Below are positions 25,802-27,876 of a stretch of DNA of 39,928 bases, in pieces. The notes under the pieces were generated by a model. The model saw only the letters and a program-made list of their open reading frames with translations, made no database searches and was not told the DNA's origin. Source of the DNA: Actinomycetes bacterium (lineage in GTDB: Bacteria > Actinomycetota > Acidimicrobiia > Acidimicrobiales > Bog-793); the NCBI GenBank assembly GCA_021798985.1, contig JAJZBI010000032.1, forward strand, positions 1 to 39,928. The letters are read 5' to 3'. A program made the translations under genes and the position numbers. Each line of letters begins with the position of its first letter. Positions within the stretch are counted from its first letter, which is position 1.

Positions 25802-27484
25802 TCAGCGAACCGCTTCGAGGAGCCGGACGCGCCAGGGCCCGGGCTCGATCGCTGCAGTTGCGTCGAGGGGTACGAGGCGCACGGTGGTGGCGGCGACGCA
25901 GGTGAGTTCGAAGGGGCGCCAAGGGCCGGCGCCCGCGCTGACCTCGGCGCGATAGCGGCCCGGCGGCGGCACGACGAGATCGTCGGGGACCACGTACGCG
26001 CTGTCCTCGACCCGCTCGCCGCGCAGCTCGTGGGGTCGCCCGAGCAGCTCGCCGGCAAGTTCGAGCGACCCGGTCGCGACGAGCGCGCGGATGCGCGAGG
26101 AGGAGATCACGATCCCCTCCTCGCTGGTGAGGGCCATGCCCTCGGTACGAAAGTCCCACTTGGATCCGAGGCGGGCCAGCAAGGCGACATCGCCAAGGGC
26201 CTGGTGGCCGAAGCGGAAGTTGTCGCCCACGACCACGACGGCGGCATTGAGCCGGTCGACCAGCACCTCCTCGACGAAGTCCTCCGCCTCCTGGTCGGCT
26301 CGGGCGCGGTCGAAGGCGAGCATCACGACCTCCTCGGCGCCTGCCTGTTCCAACAGCTCGGCCTTGTGCGCGGCCCCCGTCAGCAGCAAGGGCGTCTCGG
26401 CGGGGCGCAGCGTGGCGAGCGGGTGCCGGTCGAAGGTGACGACCGACAGGCGTGTCCCCATGGCGTCGGCGGCTGCCCGGGCCCTCGCGAGCAGGGCGCG
26501 GTGGCCGAGGTGGACCCCGTCGAAGTTGCCGATCGTCACCACGCGGCGCGGGCGTGGGGCCGGCGCGTCGCGCCGCGTCGCCGCCTCAGCGGCTGGCGCA
26601 GCGCGCACCGGCGCGCTCGGCTCGGCGAGGACGACGCTCGCCTTCAGCTGCTCGCCGCGGCGCTCATAGATGGCGAGCAGGACGCCCTCGGCAAGCAGGG
26701 CGAAGGGGCCAGGCCCCTCCACGCCGAGCGCGGCCGCGTCGATGCGAGCACCGTGCTGGATCGCGCCGATCAGGCGCGCCGGCACCTGCGAGGCTGCCAG
26801 GTGGCCGACGAGCCCCGCGGGAGGGCGCACGAGCGCCGGGGTGATCGCCTCGAGCGCCACGGCGGCTTCGACGGCGAAGGGCCCGATCGCCTCGCGGCGC
26901 AGCGCCCGCAGGTGGGCGCCGCCGCCGAGCGCTCGACCCAGGTCGGCGGCGAGGGTGCGGACATAGGTGCCCGACGAGCAGCGCACGCGGGCGCGGTACA
27001 CGCCAGCTTCATCGGTCGGCTCGATGGCGAAAGCGAAGACCTCGACCTCCCGGTCAGGACGCTCCACCTCCTGGCCAGCGCGGGCGAGCTCGTGCAGGCG
27101 GCGCCCGCCGACCTTGACGGCCGAGACCATCGGCGGCACCTGGCGGATCTTGCCGAGGAAGGCCTCGGCCGCCGCGGCGACGTCATCTGGCGTGACGCTC
27201 GCCATGTCGTAGGTGGCGACGACCTCACCCGACGCGTCGAGCGTGGTGGTCTCGGTCCCGAGCACGATCTCGCCGACATAGGTCTTGTCCAGCTCGCCGA
27301 CATAGCGCAGCAGCCGCGTCGCCCGGCCAACCCCGAGCACCAGCACCCCCGTGGCGTCGGGATCGAGGGTGCCGGCATGGCCGATGCGCCGCTCGCCGAG
27401 CAGCCGCCGCGCCCGCGCGACGACGTCGTGGGAGGTGAGCCCGGCTGGCTTGTCGACGACGAGGTAGCCGTCGGGTGCGCTCAC
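25802..27484 (-). CDS. fused TruB tRNA pseudouridine-55 synthase and RibF FAD synthetase domain
   Basis: Residues 1 to ~290 are TruB, which makes pseudouridine 55 in tRNA: VVDKPAGLTSHDVV, the catalytic-aspartate motif GHAGTLDPDATGVL, KTYVGEIVLGT and CSSGTYVRTLAADLG. After an Ala/Pro linker (~295-310) comes the FMN adenylyltransferase domain of RibF: VVTIGNFDGVHLGHR, VTFDRHPLATL, VVGDNFRFGH and ISSSRIR. The usual C-terminal riboflavin kinase is absent: only about 75 divergent residues follow GRPHEL, with no recognisable GFPTAN motif. The two genes are normally separate neighbours. The GTG start overlaps rbfA by four bases (GTGA, 27481-27484). Confidence 0.9.
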   Translation of the reverse strand: MSAPDGYLVVDKPAGLTSHDVVARARRLLGERRIGHAGTLDPDATGVLVLGVGRATRLLRYVGELDKTYVGEIVLGTETTTLDASGEVVATYDMASVTPDDVAAAAEAFLGKIRQVPPMVSAVKVGGRRLHELARAGQEVERPDREVEVFAFAIEPTDEAGVYRARVRCSSGTYVRTLAADLGRALGGGAHLRALRREAIGPFAVEAAVALEAITPALVRPPAGLVGHLAASQVPARLIGAIQHGARIDAAALGVEGPGPFALLAEGVLLAIYERRGEQLKASVVLAEPSAPVRAAPAAEAATRRDAPAPRPRRVVTIGNFDGVHLGHRALLARARAAADAMGTRLSVVTFDRHPLATLRPAETPLLLTGAAHKAELLEQAGAEEVVMLAFDRARADQEAEDFVEEVLVDRLNAAVVVVGDNFRFGHQALGDVALLARLGSKWDFRTEGMALTSEEGIVISSSRIRALVATGSLELAGELLGRPHELRGERVEDSAYVVPDDLVVPPPGRYRAEVSAGAGPWRPFELTCVAATTVRLVPLDATAAIEPGPWRVRLLEAVR

Positions 27485-27876
27485 GAATCACGCTCCGCGT
27501 CGACGTCGCCGCGGGCCTGGCGCTGCGCGGCCCGTCGCAGCGCCGCCTCGACGCGCTCGCCCGCCTCGATCGCGGGGTCCGCCAGGAAGCGCAGCGCCGG
27601 GGTGCGGCGCAGGTGGGCCTGCGTGCCGATCGCCGCCTGCAGGGCGCGGCGGTGCTGCTCGAGCACGGCCGCGGCCTCCTCGTCGAGATGGGCGAGGAGG
27701 ACCGTGGCGTGGCGCAGGTCAGGCTCGCACGCGACCCCGGTCACCGTCAGCAACGAGAGACGCTCGTCGGCGTCCTCGAGGCGGCGGATCTCCTCGGCGA
27801 GCACCTCTTGGAGGAGCGCGTTCAGTCGCGCCGTCCGCGGGTAGCCGTGCGAGGACCGATGATGGCGACGGTCCAT
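27481..27876 (-). CDS. rbfA: 30S ribosome-binding factor A
   Basis: RbfA binds the 30S subunit and helps 16S rRNA 5'-end maturation and cold adaptation. The KH-like fold is recognisable: RTARLNALLQEVLAEEIRRL, LLTVTGVACEPDLRHATVLL, and LRRTPALRFLADPAIEAGERV. The 131 residues include a basic N-terminus and an Arg/Gln-rich tail. It lies 19 bases downstream of infB and overlaps the truB/ribF start by four bases, in the standard nusA-infB-rbfA-truB order. Confidence 0.95.
   Translation of the reverse strand: MDRRHHRSSHGYPRTARLNALLQEVLAEEIRRLEDADERLSLLTVTGVACEPDLRHATVLLAHLDEEAAAVLEQHRRALQAAIGTQAHLRRTPALRFLADPAIEAGERVEAALRRAAQRQARGDVDAERDS

Follow-up and report, generated by a model that had tools for sequence, protein, structure and literature searches.

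A truB::FADS gene fusion and a reduced riboflavin kinase module in an uncultured family of acidimicrobial actinobacteria

In nearly all bacteria, FMN and FAD are made on one bifunctional protein, and this is part of why it is pursued as a drug target. The locus described here raises the question of how the two cofactors are made when the FMN adenylyltransferase (FADS) shares a polypeptide with the tRNA pseudouridine synthase TruB, and only a short tail stands in the place of the riboflavin kinase (RFK) module. The window, i.e., the whole stretch of DNA that was analysed (39,928 nucleotides), belongs to a metagenome-assembled genome (G000; 3.76 Mb, 96.9% complete) of a family of uncultured acidimicrobial actinobacteria, and the genomes of its relatives are likewise metagenome-assembled.

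Architecture of the fused chain

An ORF check of the window found 560 codons without a break in a single frame (27484-25802, minus strand). The gene lies in the order infB-rbfA-truB::FADS-def-fmt, and the stop of rbfA and the start of truB::FADS overlap as GTGA (27481-27484). The features of the locus are as follows:

25802..27484, minus strand: complete truB::FADS fusion gene (560 aa), with GTG as start codon and the stop codon at 25802-25804
27481..27876, minus strand: rbfA, directly upstream, given as context (RBFA 4.9e-19)
26846..27472, minus strand: TruB pseudouridine synthase catalytic domain, residues 5-213 (TIGR00431 match)
27341-27382, minus strand: TruB catalytic Asp motif G.LDP.A.G, here GHAGTLDPDATGVL, residues 35-48 (motif position)
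26615..26845, minus strand: C-terminal, probably PUA-like part of TruB, residues 214-290 (TruB_C_2 at 176-218; confident fold)
26549..26614, minus strand: interdomain linker, residues 291-312, Ala/Pro/Arg-rich and disordered (pLDDT < 50 at 291-306)
26039..26548, minus strand: FADS module, residues 313-482 (PF06574 4.3e-45; pLDDT about 95)
25805..26038, minus strand: tail, residues 483-560, RFK-derived mini beta-barrel without PTAN, the catalytic Glu, and the C-terminal helices

The chain is laid out as TruB with its PUA-like end (1-290), the linker (291-312), FADS (313-482), and a 78-residue tail, and it is matched in Pfam by TruB_N (3.5e-49, 26-175), TruB_C_2 (2.9e-9, 176-218), and FAD_syn (4.3e-45, 313-464). 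In the AlphaFold model of all 560 residues (mean pLDDT 90.2, pTM 0.56), confident units are separated by a disordered stretch at 291-306. The TruB half matches the NCBIfam model TIGR00431 over its full length (225.6 bits against a cut-off of 151.45), and residues 231-280 of its C-terminal part are modelled with pLDDT 93-97. Its sequence is that of a complete tRNA U55 pseudouridine synthase, and the corresponding activity is predicted.

The FADS half keeps all four signatures of its kind (GNFDGVHLGH, TFDRHP, GDNFRFG, and SSSRIR), including the (H/T)xGH and SS(T/S)xxR motifs that characterize the FMN adenylyltransferase (FMNAT) module of FADS type I. It is the only FAD_syn match in the whole G000 genome. 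Each NCBIfam equivalog model for bifunctional RibF scores below its own cut-off on the fused chain. This half is thus predicted, from its motifs and domain content, to be a monofunctional FMN adenylyltransferase.

Extent and reality of the fusion

TruB and FADS occupy one frame in only four of the 35 family members, three of one genus (G000, G001, and G002) and one of a second genus (G003). In the other 31, truB ends in a stop codon and FADS starts typically about 10-12 nt further on, in several of them without a change of frame relative to truB, so that the loss of one stop would be enough to fuse the two. This stop and restart in most of the family indicates that the fusion is recent and limited to two genera. 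Beyond the four species, no TruB fusion was found among the family and order matches listed, nor among 29 RibFs of the phylum.

A preliminary description of this DNA had recognized a TruB-RibF fusion of 560 residues, and that frame proved to be as described, recurring in the assemblies of three other species. The same description pointed to the junction as the place where relatives might carry a stop and a restart; they do in the 31 unfused members, while the frame runs on uninterrupted in the four fused ones. Its statement that tRNA pseudouridylation is joined to FAD synthesis holds for the polypeptide chain; a functional link is improbable.

Such a chain could couple flavin supply to tRNA modification, either by keeping FADS near tRNA maturation or by letting the barrel sense flavin and regulate TruB. 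In each of the four fused species neither enzyme domain is truncated, and the barrel was retained despite its lost catalysis, which would fit such a role. However, adjacency of truB and ribF is common in the order whether the genes are fused or not, and most of the family keeps the two proteins apart. The linker, which differs in length from species to species and is poorly conserved in sequence, is disordered, which argues against a fixed interface. We therefore regard functional coupling as improbable.

A different doubt concerns the fusion itself, which might be an assembly or sequencing artefact, or might be bypassed by separate production of FADS from an internal start. The stop and restart in most relatives and the metagenomic origin of the genomes speak for this reading, but the uninterrupted frame is present in separate assemblies of four species and two genera, and its recurrence in the genomes of G001, G002, and G003 excludes an assembly artefact. 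Moreover, dN/dS between G000 and G002 is 0.29 across the junction and low on either side. An internal start is opposed by linkers without any ATG in G000, G001, and G002; in G002, the stretch from the PUA-like end to the FADS core has no ATG, GTG, or TTG at all. Taken as a whole, this reading is very unlikely.

Loss of the kinase module and the stand-alone kinase

FADS type I enzymes end in a C-terminal Flavokinase domain with PTxN and a catalytic Glu, and the fused chain has no such domain. Flavokinase (PF01687) gives no match in the chain, even with the tail alone at E<=10, and a motif scan found that none of the 35 family FADS proteins retains either PTxN or the catalytic Glu motif. The tails of the family nevertheless align on a common pattern, LLGRPHEVRG ... 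LLPPPGxY ... VRVxF, which tracks the strands of the RFK module and skips GxPTAN and the catalytic Glu. In the AlphaFold model of FADS plus tail (pLDDT 93.6), the tail forms compact strands at 180-184, 186-188, 191-193, 204-212, 218-225, 231-234, and 246-254 (model numbering). VIA-align places this model on residues 12-292 of the Corynebacterium ammoniagenes FADS (Z 27.9, rmsd 2.3, 251 residues), identifying the tail as an RFK barrel minus its active-site loops and C-terminal helices; the latter are gone, as the alignment stops at residue 292 of the 338 of that enzyme.

The tail also evolves faster than the module to which it is attached, with dN/dS of 0.39-0.72 against 0.09-0.26 for FADS in nine closer pairs, although most of its values stay well below 1. 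In the more diverged fusion pair G000/G001 (dS 0.87), the values are 0.85 for the tail and 0.46 for FADS, and a tail value this near to 1 suggests that constraint on the scaffold may be slight. The tail is thus best described as a putative non-catalytic scaffold under weak constraint.

The only Flavokinase match in the whole G000 genome lies on another contig (G000:C69:8811-9155). It is a stand-alone RFK of about 143 residues (PF01687 above its cut-off, 2.2e-33) without a FADS part, its GYPTAN and LLEAYVLDF motifs, with PTAN and the catalytic Glu, are intact, and its dN/dS of 0.065 between G000 and the congener G002 points to strong purifying selection. FMN synthesis can therefore be assigned to this separate gene. 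It is most improbable that the tail, though divergent, still works as an RFK, which would leave the chain a bifunctional RibF and make the stand-alone RFK an accessory copy, since the RFK-like barrel of the predicted fold is set against the absence from the whole family of two motifs that are both needed in C. ammoniagenes (PMC2573891), the missing helices, and a tail that evolves fast while the stand-alone RFK is constrained. The preliminary description was right about the adenylyltransferase motifs and the lost kinase domain, and the separate kinase that it predicted was found by the genome search. Its "~75 divergent residues" are indeed a short C-terminus; they are not unrelated sequence but a shrunken RFK barrel still able to fold.

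All 35 genomes of the family carry FADS without an RFK domain next to truB, and 33 of them have a stand-alone RFK elsewhere; the two without it are 80-81% complete. Among the matches listed for other families of the order, the examined loci hold FADS and RFK in one frame, though rare splits may occur there. A survey of 119 Actinomycetota genomes found a sole RFK outside a FADS-sized frame only in G000; two apparent further cases, G353 and G296, were rejected as frameshifted bifunctional genes. These family, order, and phylum comparisons mark the split as a family trait that is rare in the phylum. The loss of the kinase is family-wide and older than the fusion, and the two are separate events.

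In an RFK tree of 128 columns rooted on other Actinomycetota, the stand-alone RFKs of the family form one clade (100/96), which joins those of G040 and G046 (99/80). These represent two other families of the order, and both also possess a complete bifunctional RibF, so the second kinase probably predates the decay of the RibF kinase. The joint stand-alone clade is poorly resolved relative to the bifunctional modules. The simplest order, a supported inference rather than a proof, is a second kinase, then decay of the RibF kinase, then fusion.

Several side observations concern the stand-alone kinases and riboflavin genes. G040 has, besides its complete RibF and its stand-alone RFK, a third copy (L155:3734-4675, plus strand) whose RFK is intact but whose FADS half is degenerate, with only 59 residues matching FAD_syn; it is the mirror image of FADS without a kinase. 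In 16 of the 33 family genomes with a stand-alone RFK, an MFS transporter gene is adjacent to it or no more than about 4 kb away (directly adjacent in about 12; examples are L149:4469-6247 and L138:4497-6275, both minus strand, and L122:3591-9221), and in G028, MFS_1 and Flavokinase share a single 593-codon frame. The two genes are possibly a riboflavin transporter-kinase pair. Three members of one genus (G015, G026, and G031) have an insertion of about 110-130 residues between the PTAN and GVYA strands of the stand-alone RFK (L136:4378-5103, minus; L147:4312-5094, plus; L152:4245-5018, minus). At Rfam gathering thresholds, 13 sources yielded no FMN riboswitch close to the stand-alone RFK or the neighbouring MFS gene; a c-di-GMP-II-GAG riboswitch match (L122:12753-12839, plus strand; 52.6 bits against a cut-off of 40) lies downstream of the G000 stand-alone RFK, at a distance of about 3.5 kb.

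Six family members (G013, G016, G018, G021, G027, and G032; at least 94% complete in four) lack both ribBA (DHBP synthase) and ribH and may be riboflavin auxotrophs. Neither gene was found in the G000 genome, while both are present in most of the family, including the congener G002, and neither the window nor the examined stretch of the contig with the G000 RFK matches the rib region of G002. Riboflavin auxotrophy of G000 as a driver was rejected, as a gap in the assembly is indistinguishable here from a recent loss.

Proposed history and relation to known systems

We consider it very probable that the gene encodes TruB, a tether, and a monofunctional FADS with a non-catalytic RFK barrel, that FMN comes from the stand-alone RFK, and that this state arose in three steps, ending in a fusion that was probably near-neutral. 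The product would be a two-enzyme chain in which TruB is linked by a flexible tether of about 20 residues to an FMN adenylyltransferase with a shrunken RFK barrel. The stand-alone RFK would make FMN, which the fused chain would then adenylylate to FAD; U55 pseudouridylation and FMN adenylylation are most likely independent reactions of one chain.

Comparison among relatives suggests that a stand-alone RFK paralogue first appeared alongside bifunctional RibF in an ancestor within the Acidimicrobiales. The RFK module of RibF would then have lost its catalytic loops in the family ancestor while the barrel stayed, probably because the adenylyltransferase module needs a scaffold. This role is suggested by the C. 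ammoniagenes enzyme, whose isolated adenylyltransferase module is inactive, also when mixed with the kinase module (PMC2573891). Finally, in the two-genus lineage, loss of the stop codon that ended truB would have joined the tightly packed truB and FADS in frame. The fusion was probably near-neutral, joining operon neighbours and fixing their synthesis at 1:1, and does not imply functional coupling. It is conceivable, if rather unlikely, that the emptied barrel is a regulatory or docking module that binds flavin or the stand-alone RFK, with FMN handed to the adenylyltransferase and FAD synthesis tied to tRNA maturation in the fusion.

Under the three-step history, a bifunctional FMN/FAD enzyme was undone across a whole family, and the intermediates can still be read: an additional kinase, a degraded module able to fold, and then a new fusion partner. 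Given the inactivity of the isolated C. ammoniagenes module, the FADS proteins of this family are natural minimal constructs for the role of the kinase barrel in FAD synthesis.

Separate FMNAT and RFK proteins are already known; what is new here is the family-wide dismantling with a structural remnant, together with the TruB fusion, of which no description was found in the literature searched. Relatives of RibF with only the N-terminal or only the C-terminal part were noted by Frago et al. (2008; PMC2573891) in fewer than 5% of sequences. In a survey of 1194 genomes, Yruela et al. (2010) found FMNAT and RFK separate in four, named bacterial copies without PTAN FADS type II, described the degraded C-terminal module of plant plastid enzymes, and stated that a monofunctional FMN adenylyltransferase had yet to be reported from a prokaryote (PMC2972280).

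The fused chain resembles bifunctional RibF (FADS type I; C. ammoniagenes FADS, PDB 2x0k) in its FMNAT motifs and in its fold through residue 292, and type I RibF in relatives adjoins truB as FADS does in this family. It differs in its mini-barrel without PTAN, Glu, and C-terminal helices, in the separate gene for its kinase, and in the joining of FADS to TruB. The chain shares with FADS type II, compared by description rather than by sequence, an FMNAT and a shorter C-terminal module without PTAN (PMC2972280); type II proteins, however, are mostly extra copies beside a type I enzyme, whereas here an entire family has such a protein as its sole FADS, accompanied by a stand-alone RFK. Plant plastid RibF1 and RibF2 likewise combine a bacterial-type FMNAT with a C-terminal module lacking PTAN and kinase activity, but they keep an invariant Glu and a distinct conserved module, and no TruB fusion is described for them (PMC2972280). 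The split genes of Chthoniobacter, Mesoplasma, and two Mycoplasma (PMC2972280) are neither actinobacterial nor described as fused to TruB; as in the present family, they place FMNAT and RFK on separate proteins.
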